Of a DNA stretch of 25,478 nt, positions 607 through 9,722 are shown in pieces. Source of the DNA: a virus; the IMG/VR virus record IMGVR_UViG_3300028024_000087, positions 1 to 25,478 of that record. One strand, given 5' to 3'. Within the stretch, counting starts at the first letter, position 1, and each line of letters begins with the position of its first letter. The notes under the pieces are model-generated. The model worked only from the letters and a program-made list of their open reading frames with translations. It was not told the origin of the DNA and did not search any database. Both the position numbers and the translations under genes were made by a program.

Positions 607-1092
607 TCAAGCCCGCTGTTTACCACTTGTCGCGGCCGAGGGTGGCGCTAGTAGCAGCTTTTTGTGCTGGCCTACCGCCAGCTTCACCATAGCGAATTGT
701 TCGTCTGGGTCGCTGGTCGCGGCAACAATATCCGCGTGAACTTCTGCATACTTACGCCCCAGTTCCGCGGGAACCGGAGGGATGCGTAACTCCTTATAAA
801 GCTTCATAAATCCGTCTACGATGCGGGCCATCAGCTCGGTATTGAAATCGCCTCTTGCCTGTGGCTGTGGAGCGGCGCTTTGGCCAGTGATCAGCCAATT
901 CAAATCCACCTGGGTGAAGCCCGAGATTTTCCGCAAAGCCGTCAGGCCGGGCGCACGCTCTCCGGCCAAATAGTTATGCAAGGTTCTCTCGGGAATATCC
1001 GCGCCGCGCGCTACTGCACGCGGTCCACCGGCGTGATCGACCGTTTCTTTGAATCGCTCAAGGAAAGCGTCGTCTATTTCGGGCTTCATCAT
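607..1092 (-). CDS. Phage repressor, c-like HTH protein
   Basis: This 161-residue protein is transcribed leftward, divergent from the early operon, which is the place of the lysogeny repressor in Mu-like phages. The N-terminal half carries a Cro/C1-type helix-turn-helix: 'GGPRAVARGADIPERTLHNYLAG' split over about residues 17-40, then a turn with LRKISGFTQVDLNWLITG. There is no S24 protease Ser/Lys domain, so RecA-type self-cleavage is not expected. The start ATG at 1092 (or 1089) follows GGAG with 5-8 bases spacing. A longer open frame reaching 1368 runs through the operator region and its N-terminal part is not protein-like. Palindromic operators just upstream suggest autoregulation. Confidence 0.85.
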   Translation of the reverse strand: MMKPEIDDAFLERFKETVDHAGGPRAVARGADIPERTLHNYLAGERAPGLTALRKISGFTQVDLNWLITGQSAAPQPQARGDFNTELMARIVDGFMKLYKELRIPPVPAELGRKYAEVHADIVAATSDPDEQFAMVKLAVGQHKKLLLAPPSAATSGKQRA

Positions 1093-1114
1093 CCTAACTC
1101 CGAAATTCAACGAC

Positions 1115-1128
1115 TGCGCTATTGCGCA
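1115..1128. promoter_or_regulatory. Operator, imperfect palindrome near the repressor start
   Basis: TGCGCTATTGCGCA has one mismatch pair from the perfect palindrome at 1232-1245, and both are preceded by GAC. It lies 23 bases upstream of the repressor ATG, where a bound repressor would control its own transcription. Confidence 0.6.
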
Positions 1129-1204
1129 TTTCGAAGTTGGAGAATTCGGAACAAAAACAAGATGTTGTGCCGAGTTCTGGCCTTTCAGCCCAAAATGTAA
1201 GCGC

Positions 1205-1218
1205 GAAAGCGCACTTTC
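1205..1218. promoter_or_regulatory. Possible third operator, GAAAGCGCACTTTC
   Basis: A 14-bp near-palindrome between the two TGCGC operators shares their GCGC half. It may be an auxiliary repressor or Ner site; the function is inferred from position only. Confidence 0.3.
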
Positions 1219-1221
1219 CTG

Positions 1222-1249
1222 TTGCGATGACTGCGCAATTGCGCATACT
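1222..1249 (+). promoter_or_regulatory. Candidate early promoter Pe
   Basis: TTGCGA (1222-1227) and CATACT (1244-1249) are separated by 16 bp and point toward ner and the early operon. The perfect operator at 1232-1245 fills the spacer, so repressor binding would exclude RNA polymerase. The -10 match is weak and the assignment rests partly on position. Confidence 0.45.
1232..1245. promoter_or_regulatory. Operator, perfect 14-bp palindrome TGCGCAATTGCGCA
   Basis: This is a perfect inverted repeat in the repressor-ner interval, 117 bp centre to centre from the imperfect copy at 1115-1128. It is probably the main repressor operator over the early promoter. Confidence 0.7.
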
Positions 1250-1255
1250 CTCACC

Positions 1256-1294
1256 TTCGTAACAACGAACACACCGACGAACGGATTAACGAAC
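1256..1294 (+). promoter_or_regulatory. ACGAAC triplet, probable Ner operator
   Basis: ACGAAC occurs at 1265, 1277 and 1289, an exact 12-bp period. The first copy also forms an inverted repeat with TTCGT at 1256-1260. The array lies just downstream of the likely early start site. Mu Ner binds a pair of 12-bp elements in the same region of the phage switch, so a Ner operator is a reasonable inference. Confidence 0.45.
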
Positions 1295-1318
1295 GTCAAA
1301 ACCTTCACCCCAAAAAAA

Positions 1319-1336
1319 GCCGGCCCGCCAGCCGGC
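1319..1336 (+). promoter_or_regulatory. GC-rich hairpin in the ner leader
   Basis: Two GCCGGC words, six bases apart, follow a run of seven A residues and sit six bases before the ner ribosome-binding site. The hairpin could slow or attenuate early transcription, or mask the ribosome site. No T-run follows it on the plus strand; read from the minus strand it would be followed by seven T residues and could end leftward transcription. Confidence 0.35.
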
Positions 1337-1352
1337 CCAATCAGGAGCATCA

Positions 1353-1637
1353 ATGCCACGTTTACCAAAACGCACTTGGACTCGGGAAGGTATCAAAGCT
1401 GAAATCCGCGATCGCGGCATCACGCTTGAAGCCCTCTCAAAATCCTGGGGCTACAGCCCCAAGGCCGTCACCCATGCCTTGTCTCGGCCTTGGCCTGCCA
1501 TAGAAGCCCGTATCGCCGAATTCCTTGACATTCCCGCGACCGAACTTTGGCCGGAACGATACCGCGCTGACGGATCGCCTGCCGGCGCGGCTGGCAACTA
1601 TCCCGCCCGCCGCGCTGAGACTCGGGCAGCCGCCTGA
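1353..1637 (+). CDS. ner: Ner-like transcriptional regulator
   Basis: This is a 94-residue protein of the Mu Ner/SfsB family, a small homeodomain-like HTH protein that turns down early transcription and the repressor promoter. Residues 6-70 align in pattern with Ner: WTREGIKAEIRDRGITLEAL, then SWGYSPKAVTHALSRPWP, then a helix ending in LWPERY, matching the family ending 'IWPSRY'. The C-terminal tail (about 25 residues, Ala/Arg rich) is probably disordered. The ATG follows AGGAG at 5 bases. It is the first gene of the rightward early operon, as in Mu. Confidence 0.9.
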   Translation: MPRLPKRTWTREGIKAEIRDRGITLEALSKSWGYSPKAVTHALSRPWPAIEARIAEFLDIPATELWPERYRADGSPAGAAGNYPARRAETRAAA

Positions 1638-1710
1638 TCCGCTCTGAATTGACGCAAGCCTAGTCCCTCGCGCTCTCCCCGGACAGTCAAAACGACAAGG
1701 TTATTTGAAC

Positions 1711-2526
1711 ATGGCATCCAAGATCGTCTCCATTCCCCTGGCGCAAATCTCTATTGAAGGGCGCTTGCGTTCCGTTGACCCGGATTGGGCCGCGGGCTTA
1801 GCCCTCTCCATTGAGCAGGTCGGCTTACATACACCGGTCTTGGTGGCCAAGGCCGGCGATGGCTATCGCCTCGTCGCGGGTGCGCACCGCTTCGAGGCCG
1901 TCAAGTCCCTTGGTTGGGAAAAAATCGATGCATCTATCGTTGACGGCAATCAACTGGAATTGCGCCTCCAGGAAATTGACGAAAACCTGTTCCGTCGCGA
2001 GTTGAACGCACTCGACCGGGCAACCTTTCTCGCGGAGCGCCACTCGATCTATGAGGAACTGCACCCGGAGACAAAGAAGGGGGCGGCCGGTGCTGCTGTC
2101 CGTTGGCATGCGAGCGAAAAGTTTTCGTTTGCATCCGACACGGCGGAAAAGCTCGGCCTGTCCGAGCGTTCCATTCAGCTTTCAATTGCGCGTTACCGCA
2201 ATATCAATGCCGATGTGCGGCAGCAAATCAACGGCACCTGGATCGCGAACAAGGGCAATGAGCTGGACGCACTCGCCCGTCTGTCGCCAGCCGAACAGAA
2301 AAAGGCGGTCAAACTGGTTCTTCGAGAGAAAGACCCGCTGCCCTCCATCGCCGCCGCCGCTCGTAAAATCAAGGGCACCCTCGACCCCGTCAATTCGGAT
2401 GAAGACAAGGCGCTGCAAAAGCTGATGGCGCTCTGGCGTGACGCCACGGCTGCCATACGCGGCAACTTTGTTGCATGGCTCGACGAACAAGGCGAGTTGG
2501 GCGGACGGAAAAAGAAAGCCGCGTGA
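1711..2526 (+). CDS. ParB/RepB-like partition-family protein
   Basis: This 271-residue protein has the ParB/Spo0J fold. Residues 8-75 form the ParB N-terminal domain, with GYRLVAGAHRFEAVKSLGW at 51-69. The nucleotide-binding box usually written GERR is GAHR here (57-60). ENLFRRELN (91-99) and a helix-turn-helix around AEKLGLSERSIQ (145-156) follow, then a basic tail ending GRKKKAA. ParB-like genes between ner and the transposase are common in alphaproteobacterial Mu-like phages. With no parA nearby, true plasmid-type partition is unlikely; a role in DNA binding during transposition is inferred. ATG 1711 is preferred, although a TTG two codons earlier sits closer to AAGG (1697-1700). Confidence 0.85.
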   Translation: MASKIVSIPLAQISIEGRLRSVDPDWAAGLALSIEQVGLHTPVLVAKAGDGYRLVAGAHRFEAVKSLGWEKIDASIVDGNQLELRLQEIDENLFRRELNALDRATFLAERHSIYEELHPETKKGAAGAAVRWHASEKFSFASDTAEKLGLSERSIQLSIARYRNINADVRQQINGTWIANKGNELDALARLSPAEQKKAVKLVLREKDPLPSIAAAARKIKGTLDPVNSDEDKALQKLMALWRDATAAIRGNFVAWLDEQGELGGRKKKAA

Positions 2527-2725: not shown

Positions 2726-3192
2726 TGGCACGCATAAAAGGCGATAGCCGGACAGCCGATCTCCTGAGCTGGTTGCCACCGGAGCCTGTTCAATCGTTTG
2801 ACACCGAGACGGTACGAGCAGCATCCCTTCACGGGGCGTTGTGCCGGGCGCTCAAAGAGGCGCTTAAGAGCTGCGACAAGACCCGCGAGCAGATCGCCGA
2901 GGAAATGTCTGAATATCTTGGCGAAGATGTCAGCAAGAACATGCTCGACGCTTACGCTTCGGAGGCTCGCGACGAGCACATTATCAATGTCATTCGGTTT
3001 ATCGCGCTGATCAGCGCGACCCGTGATCAGCGGCTATTGAATTGGATTGCCGAAATGTTCGGGTGGGCGGTGATTGATCAGCGGTATTTGCCAGCGATCA
3101 ACGTCGCGTTGCTTGCCGATAAGAAAGAGGAAATTGAGCGGCAGCTTCAGGTTGCGCAGCGAAACCTGAAGAACGGGAGCGCCGGGCTATGA
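2725..3192 (+). CDS. Early phage protein upstream of the transposase
   Basis: This 155-residue protein has a conserved-looking core at about residues 35-75: LHGALCRALKEALKSCDKTR, then REQIAEEMSEYLGEDVSKNMLDAYASEARD, like a phage regulatory protein with a helix-turn-helix-like segment. The end (ADKKEEIERQLQVAQRNLK) is a probable coiled coil. I recall similar proteins just before A genes in Mu-like phages but cannot name the family with certainty. The start is the ATG in the TAATG overlap; a longer frame from 2686 lies inside the preceding gene. It ends in an ATGA overlap with the transposase gene. Confidence 0.7.
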   Translation: MARIKGDSRTADLLSWLPPEPVQSFDTETVRAASLHGALCRALKEALKSCDKTREQIAEEMSEYLGEDVSKNMLDAYASEARDEHIINVIRFIALISATRDQRLLNWIAEMFGWAVIDQRYLPAINVALLADKKEEIERQLQVAQRNLKNGSAGL

Positions 3193-5132
3193 AGCAATGG
3201 TTCACGCCCGCTGATCTCGCAGCCCTGGCATTGCCCGGCATGCCGACCACAGCACGCGCAGTGCAGTTGATGGCGCAGCGTGAGAATTGGAAGCGACCTG
3301 ACTGGCAATGGCCAACCAATGAGCAAGGCCGCTGGCGGCGCCGCGAAGCGCGCGGCGGTGGTGTCGAGTATCACTATTCGCTGTTGCCGACCCGTGCGCG
3401 GGCCAAGGTGGTTTCTATGCATGTGACGCCGGCCGGTGATGAGCGCGCCGAGGCAAAAGCCGACCTGTCACACCGTGAAATGTGGACATTCTTCGATGCA
3501 CTCCCCGATAAGAAGAAGGAAAAGGCACGCGAGAAACTTGCCGCACTGGATGAGATCAACGCGCTGATCGTTTCCGGCATGCACAAGGACATCGCGTGCC
3601 AAATGGTGGCCACACAACGCGATATCGCGGTTCGCACCGTCTACAATTGGCGCGGTCTTGTGGCCGGAAAAGACCGGGCCGATTGGTTGCCGTATCTCGC
3701 ACCGCGTCATGTCGGCACGATGACCGAGGCGCACTGCGATGCGGAGGCCTGGGAGTATCTAAAGGGCGACTATCTGCGCCTGGAGCGACCGAACTTTTCG
3801 GATTGCTATCGCCGACTAACTCGGATTGCCCAGGGCAACGGTTGGAGCATCCCGAGCGACGATGCCCTGTTGCGCCGGATACAGGCGCTGCCGACCCCAC
3901 TGCTGGTCCTGGCGCGAGATGGCGTCGATGCGCTTAAACGCATGTTCCCGGCACAGGAGCGCGACCGCTCGGTATTTCATGCACTCGAAGCCGTCAACGC
4001 TGACGGTCACAAGTGGGACGTTTGGGTCCGCTGGCCTGATGGTGACATCGGCCGCCCTGTCATGGTCGGCTTTCAGGACCTGTACTCAGGCATGATCTTG
4101 TCCTGGCGCATCGACCGGACGGAAAACAAAGAGACGGTACGCCTTGCCCTCGGCGATTTGATCGAGACTTACGGCATCCCTGATCATTGCTGGCTGGATA
4201 ACGGCCGAAACTTTGCGAGCAAATGGCTGACCGGAGGTATCCCCAACCGCTACCGCTTCAAAGTCCGTGATGAAGAACCGGCCGGTATCCTCACCACTGT
4301 AGGAACCGAGGTTCACTGGACCACGCCATATAGCGGCCAGTCCAAGCCAATCGAACGAGCATGGCGCGATATGGCGCAGAGCATCGCCAAGGACCCGCGC
4401 TTTGCCGGCGCTTGGACCGGCAATACAGTGGCCGACAAACCTGAAAACTACGGCAGCAAGGCTGTTGATCTCGATACCTTCATTCAGGTGGTGAGCGAAG
4501 GGATTGCGGAACACAACGCCCGCCTGGGCCGTACGTCCCGCATCGCCGCCGGCCGTTCATTGCGTGACGTGTTTACGGCCTCCTACGAGGTAAGCCCGAT
4601 CCGCAAAGCGACACCGGAGCAACGCCGCCTTTGGCTGTTGGCTGCCGAAGGCGTCCGGTCCGATACCGTCAACGGTTCCATGCGGATCGAAGGCAACCGG
4701 TATTGGGCGGAATTCCTGCATGCCTTTCGCGGCCAAAAGCTGGTGGCGCGGTTCGATCCGCAAAGCCTTCATGACGGCATCCACATCTATCGTCTCGATG
4801 GTGCTTATGTCGGCTATGCCGACTGCATCGAGGCAGCCGGCTTCAACGATGTGAACGCGGCCCGCTCCCATGCTCAGACGCGCCGCGCTTGGATGCGCGC
4901 CCAGGCAGAGATGCTGAAGGCGGAGCGCAAGCTATCGATTGAGGAAGTGGCGGCCATGATGCCGACCACGGAGGAACCTGCACCGCTGCCTGAGACAAAA
5001 CTCGTGCGGCCGGTCTTCGGAAATCTCGCAATCAAGCCGGAAACGGCAATCGACGCCGAGCGGGACCAAGAAGAGGTGCTGATCAATTTTGGCCGGGGAT
5101 TGGCCCTGGTTAAAAACAACGCCGACCTCTGA
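3189..5132 (+). CDS. A: Mu-type DDE transposase A
   Basis: This 647-residue transposase cuts the phage ends and joins them to target DNA in replicative transposition. Residues 1-75 match the Mu A N-terminal winged helix that binds the enhancer (WFTPADLAALALPGMPTTAR). End-binding HTH subdomains lie at about 110-250. The RNase H-like core carries the catalytic triad D272 (in NADGHKWD), D337 (in WLDNGRN) and E389 (in KPIERAW), with spacings of 65 and 52 residues, like Mu A. The beta-barrel is at about 480-560, and the basic helix at 565-600 (RRAWMRAQAEMLKAERKL) fits the domain III that contacts B. The gene is full length and looks intact. It starts in an ATGA overlap and is followed by B. Confidence 0.97.
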   Translation: MKQWFTPADLAALALPGMPTTARAVQLMAQRENWKRPDWQWPTNEQGRWRRREARGGGVEYHYSLLPTRARAKVVSMHVTPAGDERAEAKADLSHREMWTFFDALPDKKKEKAREKLAALDEINALIVSGMHKDIACQMVATQRDIAVRTVYNWRGLVAGKDRADWLPYLAPRHVGTMTEAHCDAEAWEYLKGDYLRLERPNFSDCYRRLTRIAQGNGWSIPSDDALLRRIQALPTPLLVLARDGVDALKRMFPAQERDRSVFHALEAVNADGHKWDVWVRWPDGDIGRPVMVGFQDLYSGMILSWRIDRTENKETVRLALGDLIETYGIPDHCWLDNGRNFASKWLTGGIPNRYRFKVRDEEPAGILTTVGTEVHWTTPYSGQSKPIERAWRDMAQSIAKDPRFAGAWTGNTVADKPENYGSKAVDLDTFIQVVSEGIAEHNARLGRTSRIAAGRSLRDVFTASYEVSPIRKATPEQRRLWLLAAEGVRSDTVNGSMRIEGNRYWAEFLHAFRGQKLVARFDPQSLHDGIHIYRLDGAYVGYADCIEAAGFNDVNAARSHAQTRRAWMRAQAEMLKAERKLSIEEVAAMMPTTEEPAPLPETKLVRPVFGNLAIKPETAIDAERDQEEVLINFGRGLALVKNNADL

Positions 5133-5180
5133 CGCAAACAGAGGCCGGCGCAAATGCAACCATCAACAGGAGCAGACTAT

Positions 5181-6149
5181 ATGAACGCGATTACTGCTGA
5201 CAAGGGCACTTTCAGCGATGAACACCAGAACGCCTTGCGCGAAGAAGTGCGGGCCATCATGGAACACGAAGGAATGTCCCAGGCCGATGTTTCCAAAGCA
5301 TCAGGGGTCAAATATGGCACCTTCACCGGGTGGCTTAGTGGCACCTACGCAGGACGAAATGAGAACATCGCTGCGGAGGTCCAAATCTGGCTTGAGGCCC
5401 GCAAAGAGCAACAGCGCACTTTAACTAAGCTACCACCGCCGCCGGGCTTCCAAGCTACGCCGACAGCTAAACACATCATCAATGTACTGAGCTTCGCCCA
5501 GGCGTCTCCTGATTTCACGGTAGTTGCGGGAGGCCCTGGTGTCGGCAAGACGACAGCACTCAAGCGCTATCAGGAAACCAACCCGAACGTTTGGATGATC
5601 ACCATGTCGCCGACTAGTTCGTCACCGCATGCATTGCTGACGGAGCTGTGCGAGGAGATGCGGATTGCAGAACGGCAATCAATGAAGTTGATGCGGGCTA
5701 TCGGCCGTAAGATTGCTGGATCGAATGGCCTCATCATCGTGGATGAAGCGCAGCACTTGCTGCCGAAGGCGGTAGATCAGCTTCGGTCGATTTACGACCT
5801 GGGCGGCGTCGGCGTCGTCTTGGCTGGCAATGAAACGGTTTACAGCCGGTTAGAAGGCGAAGGGCGGAAGGCCGCTTATGCGCAGATGTATAGCCGGATC
5901 GGCATGCGGATTACCCGGCCTAAGCCGCACGCGCAGGACATCTGCACACTGATAAAGGCCTGGGGTATTGACGATAAAGACCAAGCCGAATTGCTGAAGG
6001 TCATTGCCCGCAAGCCCGGCGCTTTGCGCGGATTGACGAAGACCTTAACGCTTGCTGCCATGCTCGCCGCCGGTGATGGCGTGCCGCGTGGTGTGAAGCA
6101 CATCAAACAGGCATGGTCGCAGCTCTCCAGCCAAGACGTTGTGTCGTAA
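5181..6149 (+). CDS. B: AAA+ target-DNA activator B
   Basis: This 322-residue ATPase, the Mu B family, binds target DNA, stimulates transposase A and gives target immunity. Residues 20-80 hold a Cro-like HTH (MSQADVSKASGVKYGTFTGW) as in Mu B. Walker A is GGPGVGKT (117-124) and Walker B is LIIVDEAQH (184-192); a sensor region (VVLAGNETVYSRL) and the C-terminal KPGALRGLTKTLTLAAMLA domain follow. I choose ATG 5181, preceded by AGGAG at 8 bases. An in-frame ATG at 5154 with GAGG is possible and would add nine residues. It lies 48 bases after A. Confidence 0.96.
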   Translation: MNAITADKGTFSDEHQNALREEVRAIMEHEGMSQADVSKASGVKYGTFTGWLSGTYAGRNENIAAEVQIWLEARKEQQRTLTKLPPPPGFQATPTAKHIINVLSFAQASPDFTVVAGGPGVGKTTALKRYQETNPNVWMITMSPTSSSPHALLTELCEEMRIAERQSMKLMRAIGRKIAGSNGLIIVDEAQHLLPKAVDQLRSIYDLGGVGVVLAGNETVYSRLEGEGRKAAYAQMYSRIGMRITRPKPHAQDICTLIKAWGIDDKDQAELLKVIARKPGALRGLTKTLTLAAMLAAGDGVPRGVKHIKQAWSQLSSQDVVS

Positions 6150-6160
6150 GGGAGGCGCGC

Positions 6161-6370
6161 ATGTTGTCAAACGAAATTCGTAATATCGCAGCCGCTCTTT
6201 CCGCTCTGCCTCTTGATAGTACCGACGGGCCCGATTTGGCGCGGCGGCTCGATGCTATCGCGGCCGGCGTCGAGAGCTTGGAAGCGATCACCATCCCGAC
6301 TTATGCGCGCGTTATCCCGGCTGATTGCCGGGATAACGTTCTCGCCTTCCGAAGGGCGGGTGCCATATGA
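6161..6370 (+). CDS. Small early protein containing a DNA inverted repeat
   Basis: This is a 69-residue, mainly helical protein (LSNEIRNIAAALSALPL..., then ARRLDAIAAGVESLEAI). I do not recognise a family. ATG 6161 follows GGGAGG at 5 bases, and the gene ends in an ATGA overlap with the next one, so translation is likely. Its last third contains a perfect 11-bp inverted repeat (6311-6337) that is listed separately; the codons there encode VIPADCRDN. Confidence 0.65.
   Translation: MLSNEIRNIAAALSALPLDSTDGPDLARRLDAIAAGVESLEAITIPTYARVIPADCRDNVLAFRRAGAI
6311..6337. repeat. Perfect 11-bp inverted repeat inside a coding region
   Basis: GTTATCCCGGC (6311-6321), five bases TGATT, then GCCGGGATAAC (6327-6337). 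As RNA it is a very stable hairpin 30 bases before a stop codon and the next coupled start. As DNA it contains two inverted TTATCC words, the 5' part of a DnaA box, and lies 350 bases upstream of a gene for a DnaA domain IV protein. Confidence 0.7.
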
Positions 6371-6693
6371 CCAACCAACCCTACAAAGTGGGTGATGTCA
6401 TCGACGTCGATTTCCGGGGCCGCGCGGTCAAAGCGGAGGTGGTGACCTATCGGACCGCCAGCCGCCGGCAGATATTGACCGTGCGTACCGAGAACGACGG
6501 GCTGTTGACCCTCGCAATCGAGTTGCCGGTGACGGAAGGCGTAGCATCGATTTCTGTCCCTCCTGCCGATATCGCCGCTGCGCGTGTCATTGCGCTATCG
6601 ATACTCGCTCGCCACGAAACTCGGATGCCGGTCGCGGCAGAGGCCAATCTGTTGGCCTCTGCCGTGATCGCTCTGACCGGCGGTGCTGCATGA
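6367..6693 (+). CDS. Hypothetical early protein
   Basis: This is a 108-residue protein. Residues 1-65 look beta-rich (YKVGDVIDVDFRGRAVKAEV, then QILTVRTENDGLLTLAIELP), like a small barrel; the remainder is an Ala-rich helix pair. I do not recognise a family. It is coupled on both sides by ATGA overlaps (6367-6370 and 6690-6693), which supports expression as part of the early operon just before the DnaA-like gene. Confidence 0.65.
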   Translation: MTNQPYKVGDVIDVDFRGRAVKAEVVTYRTASRRQILTVRTENDGLLTLAIELPVTEGVASISVPPADIAAARVIALSILARHETRMPVAAEANLLASAVIALTGGAA

Positions 6694-7169
6694 CCAGATC
6701 ACGGCTTTCCATCGAGTACATTCAGCAGCAGGTCGCCGAATCCTACGGCCTCGATGTCCGCCTACTGATCTCGCCGCGTCGCGCCCGTAAGATAACCCGG
6801 CCCCGTCAGGTGGCAATATGGCTCTGCGCAAAACTCTTACCCGGCCGCTCGCTGCCCGAGATCGGCCGGGCCTTCGGTAATCGTGATCACACCACCATCA
6901 TGCACGCTATTCGGCGGATCGATACTCTATCGGATCACGATGCCGCGTTTTTCGAGACACTGGTGATCATCCGTGACCGACTCACGGAAGCGACAGGGGT
7001 ACAGCCCGCGCGGCCGGTGTCGATCGTGGCACAGGCCCGCGAATTGGCACGGATCTTTGCCAAGGCGGCTTACGCCTTGGCGGAGGCCGATCCCGAGCTA
7101 GCAGCTCGCACGTTTCGACATCTCTCGGCGAGCTTTCAGCCAGTTCAGCAGCACGGCGGCCGGAGATGA
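6690..7169 (+). CDS. Free-standing DnaA domain IV DNA-binding protein
   Basis: Residues 7-80 of this 159-residue protein match the C-terminal DNA-binding domain of the replication initiator DnaA: IQQQVAESYGLDVRLLISPR, RKITRPRQVAIWLC, SLPEIGRAFG, and NRDHTTIMHAIRRI, the variant of the DnaA signature GRDHTTVMHA. The AAA+ ATPase domain of DnaA is absent. Residues 85-159 are helical and of unknown role. It should bind DnaA-box-like DNA without being able to open an origin. Roles as a competitor of host DnaA, or as a phage regulator using this fold, are inferences. ATGA overlaps couple it on both sides. Confidence 0.88.
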   Translation: MTRSRLSIEYIQQQVAESYGLDVRLLISPRRARKITRPRQVAIWLCAKLLPGRSLPEIGRAFGNRDHTTIMHAIRRIDTLSDHDAAFFETLVIIRDRLTEATGVQPARPVSIVAQARELARIFAKAAYALAEADPELAARTFRHLSASFQPVQQHGGRR

Positions 7170-7285
7170 TGCGCGCTCTTCTCACCTGGCTGTTCGGTCG
7201 CCGCCGCAAGTCCGATCCACTCCCGCATTTTGGCCGCCTGCTGATTGGCGGCTCCATCACCTCGACAAAAGGAAAACTACGATGA
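7166..7285 (+). CDS. 39-residue basic microprotein, coupled on both sides
   Basis: This is a short frame: MMRALLTWLFGRRRKSD followed by PLPHFGRLLIGGSITSTKGK. Its ATG lies in an ATGA overlap with the stop of the DnaA-like gene, and its TGA overlaps the ATG of the next gene in the same way, a pattern that is unlikely by chance. An amphipathic start followed by GRRRK suggests membrane or nucleic-acid contact. No family is recognised. The second ATG (7169) is an alternative start. Confidence 0.5.
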   Translation: MMRALLTWLFGRRRKSDPLPHFGRLLIGGSITSTKGKLR

Positions 7286-7923
7286 CCACCGACACCGCAG
7301 CCACCGTGGCCAATCTCCCCGACACCACCAACTTTATGATCGACGCCAAAGGCCGCCACGTCCCGGTCCATCTCGTCAGCGATCTCGAAAAGCTCCAAGA
7401 CCAACTTGTCACCAATGTCATGAATTTTGCCATCTCTTTATCTGCACAGATTGCCCGCTTCAAAACCCATACCTTCGATGACGTCGATACCTACATGTCA
7501 CTGTCAGCAGAGAAGTACGGCGCGAAGCGACGTGGACAGAAAGGCAACATGAAATTTCAGAGCTACAACGGTTGCATGCGCTTAATCGTCGCCGTGCAAG
7601 ATCATCTCGATTTCGGACCGGAGCTTCAAACGGCGAAGGCGCTGGTTGATGAATGCATTTCAGAATGGGCATCTGAAGCTAGCGATAAAATCAAAAAGCT
7701 GGTTAGCCACGCCTTCGATGTCGATAAGGCTGGCCGGATCAATCGCGAGGCGCTGTTCTCCTTGCGACGCTTGCAGATAGACGATCCGCGTTGGAAGAGC
7801 GCGATGGAAGCCATCGCCGACAGCATGCGGATAGCCGGGTCAAAGACCTACATTCGGCTCTATCAACGCGCCACTGCGACCGATGATTGGTTGCTTGTGC
7901 CCATCGATCTAGCCGCCGTGTGA
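7282..7923 (+). CDS. DUF3164-family phage protein
   Basis: This 213-residue protein resembles the DUF3164 family found in the early regions of Mu-like phages. Visible traits are the N-terminal FMIDAKGRHVPVHLVSDLEK, a basic central stretch (KRRGQKGNMKFQSYNG), and a helical C-terminal half with GRINREALFSLRRLQIDDPRW followed by AMEAIADSMRIAGSKTYIRL. The biochemical role of the family is not known to me; a DNA-related early function is inferred from position. ATG 7282 follows AAAGGA at about 8 bases and overlaps the preceding stop. Confidence 0.8.
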   Translation: MTTDTAATVANLPDTTNFMIDAKGRHVPVHLVSDLEKLQDQLVTNVMNFAISLSAQIARFKTHTFDDVDTYMSLSAEKYGAKRRGQKGNMKFQSYNGCMRLIVAVQDHLDFGPELQTAKALVDECISEWASEASDKIKKLVSHAFDVDKAGRINREALFSLRRLQIDDPRWKSAMEAIADSMRIAGSKTYIRLYQRATATDDWLLVPIDLAAV

Positions 7924-8576: not shown

Positions 8577-8879
8577 ATGACCGAATCACGCGTTATCGCC
8601 GCGCTCGATCTCGCCTGCATGTTGCAGGTGCTGAGCACCCGTCATCCGGCCTTGGCCGTTGATGATCGGATCAAGCTTCGGCGTTACACGGTGCGCGGGA
8701 TGGCCGCGCTCAATGGCAGCCGGCTGCCCGCTGGTGAGGCAATCGACCTGTCTATCGGCCTTGCGGCCTTCGATGCGATCTGTTCGGCCCTGATCAGCCT
8801 CGGCATTAGCAACGCTGAGCTGGCCGCGCATTTCAATCGCGGTGCGGTTAATCGCATCAATCCGGCGAGCGCGTCATGA
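8577..8879 (+). CDS. Hypothetical protein upstream of gemA
   Basis: This 100-residue, mainly helical protein has no family I recognise. ATG 8577 has a strong GGAGG five bases upstream, and the gene ends in an ATGA overlap with gemA, so it is expressed with the gemA-mor block. About 180 bases without a convincing plus-strand gene and an AT-rich operator-like site precede it. It may therefore be the first gene of a sub-operon with its own promoter. Confidence 0.65.
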   Translation: MTESRVIAALDLACMLQVLSTRHPALAVDDRIKLRRYTVRGMAALNGSRLPAGEAIDLSIGLAAFDAICSALISLGISNAELAAHFNRGAVNRINPASAS

Positions 8880-9316
8880 GCACTGATCCGACACGGAATG
8901 CCGAGATCGCGAAAATCAAGATCGGGCAGCAGAAGCTTGGCCTTGATGACAGCACCTACCGGGCGATGCTGGGACAGGTGACCGGCCACCAGTCGGCCGC
9001 CCTTCTCACCGCCTCACAGCGTCGCGCTGTGCTGGACCATATGACCGGCCTCGGAGCTTTTAAGGGACAGGCAAAAATGGCCGCACACCCCATTGCGCGA
9101 AAGGTCTTTGCGCTGTGGGCCGAGTTGCATCGGGCTGGCAAGGTGGGTGATCCGTCGCGCGAAGCACTGCGGGCCTTTGTCCGCCGGCGGACGATCACCA
9201 AAAAACATCCGGCCGGCGTGGGCGATCCTGAGTGGCTGACCGCCAGCGAAGCAAACCGGGTCATTGAAGCCCTAAAGGCATGGTTAGAGAGGGACGGCAA
9301 TGGAAAGCTTGCGTGA
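8876..9316 (+). CDS. gemA: GemA / gp16 family protein (DUF1018)
   Basis: This 146-residue protein is of the Mu GemA (gp16) family. The N-terminal pattern IAKIKIGQQKLGLDDSTYRA is the family hallmark, followed by LTASQRRAVLDHMTGLGAF and a C-terminal helix pair (WLTASEANRVIEALKAWLER). In Mu, GemA affects host gene expression and DNA relaxation and lies just before mor, as here. It overlaps mor by 17 bases and is coupled to the gene before it. Confidence 0.88.
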   Translation: MSTDPTRNAEIAKIKIGQQKLGLDDSTYRAMLGQVTGHQSAALLTASQRRAVLDHMTGLGAFKGQAKMAAHPIARKVFALWAELHRAGKVGDPSREALRAFVRRRTITKKHPAGVGDPEWLTASEANRVIEALKAWLERDGNGKLA

Positions 9317-9722
9317 GCGCTACGGCTATTTGCCGCGCGGACTCGTGATCGTCAACGAAACGGTGGGCGAAGATGCGATGCTGCGTCTTGCCGCCAAGTT
9401 GGGCGGGCTGCGGGTTCGTTGCGCGCGGGCCTGGGGTGCCGATAATGAGATTGCCCAGCTATTCGGTCAGGAGATCGCCGAGGCAATCCGGCACGCATTG
9501 TTCGCGGCCGGTATCGACCGCTGGGACGTTCCCATGATGGGCCATAGCTTGACGCGCGCCCGCCGCGCCCGCATCTTTGCGCTTCGGCAAGAAGGGAAGA
9601 CCGCTAACGAGATTGCCCTATTGCTTGGCATCACGCAGCGAACTGTCTTCTATCGGCAAGACGGACCCGAGGCCGATCCCCGACAGATCGATTTGGAGAG
9701 TTTGCTTAAGCCGACTGGCTGA
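9300..9722 (+). CDS. mor: Mor-family middle/late transcription activator
   Basis: This 140-residue protein fits the Mor/C family of Mu. The dimerisation half contains LAAKLGGLRVRC and a helix (EIAEAIRHALFAAGID), and the HTH is at about 92-120: RIFALRQEGKTANEIALLLG then ITQRTVFYRQ. Mor activates the middle promoter in Mu. Only one Mor/C protein is seen here, so it may switch on late genes directly. AGAGGG sits 6 bases before the ATG. It is the last gene before a strong terminator, as expected for the end of the early transcript. Confidence 0.87.
   Translation: MESLRERYGYLPRGLVIVNETVGEDAMLRLAAKLGGLRVRCARAWGADNEIAQLFGQEIAEAIRHALFAAGIDRWDVPMMGHSLTRARRARIFALRQEGKTANEIALLLGITQRTVFYRQDGPEADPRQIDLESLLKPTG

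Follow-up and report, generated by a model that had tools for sequence, protein, structure and literature searches.

The window analysed here, a virus record spanning 25,478 bases in its entirety, belongs to a Mu-like transposable phage whose MuA, MuB, GemA and Mor homologues are arranged in the Mu order, with the late genes lying downstream of the Mor/C-like activator (Table 1). Between the transposition ATPase and the DUF3164 gene lie orf108 and a gene for a protein resembling domain IV of DnaA (hereafter the domain IV gene), which overlap in an ATGA; because of this overlap the two are probably co-translated. The domain IV gene belongs to the coupled early operon of this Mu-like phage, and the phage origin proposed for it in a sequence-only reading of this DNA is supported. 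A ParB-like protein comparable to that of the window is also found in the phages StopSmel, Aussie and POA1180. At the left edge of the window (positions 1-300), our impression is that the DNA may be that of the host; a reading frame there contains an SPRxRGE-like stretch, of a type that we have the impression of meeting in alphaproteobacterial intergenic repeats.

Table 1. Features of the early region of the window (window coordinates)
Feature	Position	Strand	Evidence or remark
Repressor	607-1368	-	
ner-like gene	between the repressor and ParB-like genes		
ParB-like gene	1705-2526		early operon, between ner and MuA
MuA-type transposase	3189-5132	+	Pfam: DDE_2, Mu DNA-binding domains
MuB-type transposition ATPase	5154-6149	+	Pfam: PF09077, AAA_22
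Small ORF	6113-6370		true start perhaps 6161
orf108 (small protein)	6367-6693	+	directly upstream of the domain IV gene
dnaA domain IV-like gene (159 aa)	6690-7169	+	ATG start
DnaA domain IV fold (residues 6-103)	6705-6998	+	Pfam, structural match, residue mapping
Predicted C-terminal helical hairpin (residues 112-133 and 135-149)	7023-7136	+	AlphaFold model, alignments
DUF3164 gene (next conserved early gene)	7282-7923	+	Pfam: PF11363
GemA homologue	8876-9316	+	Pfam: PF06252
Mor/C-like late transcription activator	9300-9722	+	phrog_836

The Pfam profile Bac_DnaA_C (PF08299) matches the product at 91.6 bits (cut-off 31.5; E 3.1e-26), aligning over its full length (1-69 of 69) to residues 8-77, and a Pfam search of the 159-residue protein recovered neither an AAA+ or ATPase domain nor any other DnaA domain. 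The open reading frame is present, and the idea of a free-standing DnaA domain IV devoid of the ATPase is thereby borne out. The DnaA equivalog TIGR00362 is missed by a wide margin (95.2 bits against 343.9, covering profile positions 343-434 only) because the protein corresponds solely to the C-terminal part of DnaA. A phmmer search of the PDB matched the complex of E. coli DnaA domain IV with DnaA-box DNA (1j1v; E 2.6e-19). An AlphaFold2 model derived from 20 aligned phage relatives (pLDDT 90.6) superimposes on 1j1v with a Foldseek TM-score of 0.96, normalised by target length, and a VIA-align Z of 19.1 (rmsd 0.8 A, residues 6-100), and on the box-bound Mycobacterium tuberculosis DnaA (3pvp) with an equal Z of 19.1 at 0.8 A, the match in this case reaching residue 103; TrpR appears among the weaker structural neighbours. 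Since the domain IV fold occupies approximately residues 6-103, the additional C-terminal part begins near residue 104. The boundary at residue 85 drawn in the sequence-only reading therefore lies about 18 residues too early, the helix at 85-102 belonging to domain IV itself. The window protein accordingly has the fold of cellular domain IV, with 94-96 residues superimposing at 0.8 A, and shares its main box-contacting residues, but differs in being free-standing, lacking domains I-III and being encoded by a phage, and further in a turn that is longer by one residue before the SLPEIG helix and in an extra C-terminal hairpin.

The anticipated DnaA-box contacts are indeed present, the main set being identical to that of E. 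coli DnaA. R399, R401, R405, P406, R407, Q408, P423, R432, D433, H434, T435, T436 and H439 are all retained in the alignment of the window protein, and K397 is replaced by a proline. In the helix-turn-helix, R31 corresponds to R399, R65-D66-H67-T68-T69 to R432-T436, and H72 to H439. The residues R399, R407, Q408, P423, R432-T436 and H439 are also identical in the relatives from loci L104, L105, L108 and L109. The study that produced 1j1v reportedly found R407, Q408, P423 and H439 to touch DNA too. The minor groove is contacted by R399 and the major groove by the helix 434-451, and box binding is defective in the E. coli mutants R399A and T435M (PMC5742627). These identities suggest that the window protein likely recognises DnaA boxes. 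The 15 distinct carriers of the gene described below were found by way of MuA alone and so carry no bias for the recognition motif; H434 is kept in 11 of them. The recognition helix is altered to xDPTT in L201, L205 and L223 and to HYAS in L199, and owing to such changes box binding is not common to all carriers.

A helical C-terminus had also been anticipated, and prediction of the whole protein agrees with it in placing helices at 112-133 and 135-149, preceded by a linker (about 101-110) that is modelled with lower confidence. The hairpin is conserved in alignments of the closest relatives, the tails of L104-L109 being 45-61% identical, and no match to it was found among the fold-search matches listed, all of which fell on one domain. 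We dropped the notion of a tail common to all carriers. When a model built from the seven nearest tails was scored on those of distant carriers against 200 shuffles, the best cases were equalled by 2-7 of the 200 and several did no better than shuffles, and homology of the tail is consequently claimed for the close group only. A helix-(D/N)P-helix pattern can be seen, but may be convergent.

Profile scans across 80 loci collected by MuA similarity uncovered the domain IV gene in 16, about one in five, of which 15 are distinct (L188 and L189 appear to represent one phage); among the approximately 66 loci with a recognised MuB as well as a recognised GemA, 14 carry it. In all 16 carriers it lies on the operon strand, 3' of MuA and, where GemA was seen, 5' of GemA, and in L206 and L217 it is located past DUF3164. 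Full-length relatives that include the tail (45-71% identical) occur in L097, L104-L109 and L268; at least six distinct phages besides that of the window have conserved orthologues of this kind. The transposase and ATPase module of L104 and L268 is different, yet the succession orf108, domain IV gene, DUF3164 and GemA is retained: the L104 transposase has Mu-transpos_C and HTH_Tnp_Mu_1 and no DDE_2 match, its ATPase has AAA_22 without the MuB C-terminal domain, and the window MuB finds no match in L104-L109. L097 is very close to the window phage in MuA (94% identical), MuB (85%) and Mor (91%), whereas orf108 and the domain IV protein are only 33% and 45% identical and the flanking genes 74% and 72%. 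This divergence, taken together with the roughly 71% identity of the window domain IV protein to that of L104, suggests that orf108 and the domain IV gene look to have been exchanged jointly between phages or to have evolved fast.

The locus G047 is otherwise colinear: it has MuA and MuB, and DUF3164 comes after an orf108 homologue with no domain IV gene in between. Its absence here, in conjunction with its occurrence behind two different transposase/ATPase modules, identifies the gene as an accessory cassette; as about four-fifths of the related transposable phages are without it, it is not required for the phage cycle. No clear copy was detected in the annotated Mu-like phages StopSmel, Aussie and POA1180. 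In the first two, a small gene preceding ParB (L098 2119-2520 and L100 2122-2523) was hit by the domain IV profile with E 0.006, and may be a remote helix-turn-helix relative or a chance match. The comparison of the L104 and L105 genes (dN 0.14, dS 0.94, dN/dS about 0.15) indicates that the domain IV gene is under purifying selection, as judged from substitution patterns.

In all nine viral loci found with orf108 the domain IV gene adjoins it. We considered orf108 as its obligatory partner; this is ruled out by G047, whose orf108 homologue stands without a domain IV gene, and orf108 is therefore independent of the latter. The structural model of orf108 is weak (pLDDT 68), and 385 sampled genomes of the class yielded only distant relatives of orf108 and no exact host. 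L104 (6328-6657) and, at the corresponding places, L105-L107 harbour a diverged second orf108 paralogue (profile E 2e-9 to 2e-7) directly before orf108, from which it follows that the family duplicates in tandem.

DnaA boxes encoded by the phages themselves were rejected as the targets, as the window has no consensus box and none recurs at a fixed place in the 30 carrier loci surveyed. The motif TTWTNCACA occurs 0 times in the window against 0.8 expected, and sites with one mismatch 3 times against 2.4. In 377 kb from the 30 carrier loci, counts for which come chiefly from the left portion of the genomes, the consensus TTATNCACA is absent (2.8+/-1.3 expected) and TTWTNCACA occurs 4 times against 7.3 expected, with no boxes at a recurring fixed place; the 63 non-carrier loci contain 24 boxes against 24.4 expected. 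Box depletion in the carriers is statistically weak and suggestive only. With consensus boxes absent or few in the carrier loci, the phage offers no targets of its own, and the early-operon position together with the missing consensus boxes fits action on host DNA.

Phage proteins annotated as DnaA C-terminal are already known to be common in databases and deposited phages. BFVD gives 43 matches with an E of at most 0.001, many of them labelled in this way, and proteins named "Chromosomal replication initiator, DnaA C-terminal" (for example A0A6J7WM09 in BFVD, AmM1_63 of Aurantimonas phage AmM-1 and EVB88_078 of Rhizobium phage RHph_N28_2) resemble the window protein in having a Bac_DnaA_C-like domain without a full DnaA. 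They are, however, at most about 34% identical to it in the structure search, and whereas AmM1_63 adjoins a primase and the RHph_N28_2 gene follows DUF1376, the window gene lies in a transposable-phage early operon and has a tail of its own. Hits under records such as "Campylobacter phage A11a" and "Salmonella phage S.Kent 1-2-1" probably stem from host DnaA contained in those records, and we left them out of the count. The PRK06030 family (NCBIfam NF004686-NF004688) likewise comprises small proteins similar to DnaA domain IV, but the window protein falls far short of its cut-offs (28.5 against 136, 25.4 against 148 and 22.5 against 181 bits). We found no paper on the function of a phage protein consisting of DnaA domain IV only in the open-access literature. 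New here are the tail, the behaviour as an accessory cassette and the finding that such a protein recurs in transposable phages.

With regard to function, we tentatively favour, as plausible, a protein that passively occupies DnaA boxes of the host and thereby impedes both DnaA-oriC assembly and promoters under DnaA control; competition with host DnaA of this kind was put forward in the sequence-only reading. The product would be an optional protein of alphaproteobacterial Mu-like phages, presumably made early in lytic growth, that retains the box-binding domain and lacks domains I-III, which are needed for origin melting and helicase loading. It might bind boxes on the host chromosome, both at oriC and at DnaA-controlled promoters, and by mere occupancy could weaken assembly of the DnaA-oriC complex; its hairpin might dimerise the protein or bind a partner. 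To our knowledge, Mu has no need for DnaA. Mu fork assembly after strand transfer uses restart proteins (PMC3334882), and since replication is set up in this manner, a block of DnaA would be harmless to a phage that relies on restart proteins of the host, and not on DnaA, to start the forks of its replicative transposition. By analogy, a precedent for a prophage product directed against DnaA at oriC is YfdR of the E. coli prophage CPS-53, the cluster of which lowers initiation by DnaA; YfdR binds the DnaA protein, with DnaA Phe46 being important (PMC4776307), and differs in that it is not a DnaA domain and targets DnaA, the expected target of the window protein being a DNA site.

The principal alternative, which we regard as doubtful, is that the DnaA helix-turn-helix was reused in a transcription factor acting at its own, possibly altered, sites in phage or host promoters, a replication block not being its purpose. 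DnaA itself is a transcription factor, and this alternative would sit well with the small helix-turn-helix fold, with TrpR among the weaker structural neighbours, with a hairpin that could dimerise the protein, and with the altered recognition residues of some phages, as expected if a regulator has operators of its own. Yet the window protein has the same recognition residues as DnaA, and nothing in them points to a new site. The lack of consensus boxes in the window and of any recurrent place for them in carrier loci, with no consensus-box array in the carriers' early region, speaks against phage promoters being simply controlled by way of canonical boxes. A positive factor that recruits the host replisome or the transposition ATPase to regions with DnaA boxes, so that replication would begin or transposition be targeted there, as TnsD/TniQ guides TnsC, appears improbable: the gene lies a few genes 3' of MuB in most carriers, but in L104-L109 the same protein and tail stand behind a different transposase/ATPase pair, so that the tail is not matched to MuB, and the displacement past DUF3164 in L206 and L217 speaks against it as well. 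The patchy distribution, with absence from the colinear G047, would be compatible with a captured host fragment of little function spread by recombination, but we consider this very improbable in light of the purifying selection and the conservation of full-length orthologues, tail included, in the other phages.

An evolutionary elaboration of the favoured box-occupancy reading, which we consider rather unlikely as a whole, is that transposable phages repeatedly acquired a bare domain IV, which acts as a dominant-negative "decoy initiator" and shuts down oriC early while DnaA-independent replication by transposition continues, the recognition helix being altered later in several lineages. If DnaA boxes are indeed blocked, phages would have in this a simple means of making their replication independent of the host cell cycle, and it would furnish a tool to stop initiation without touching DnaA.
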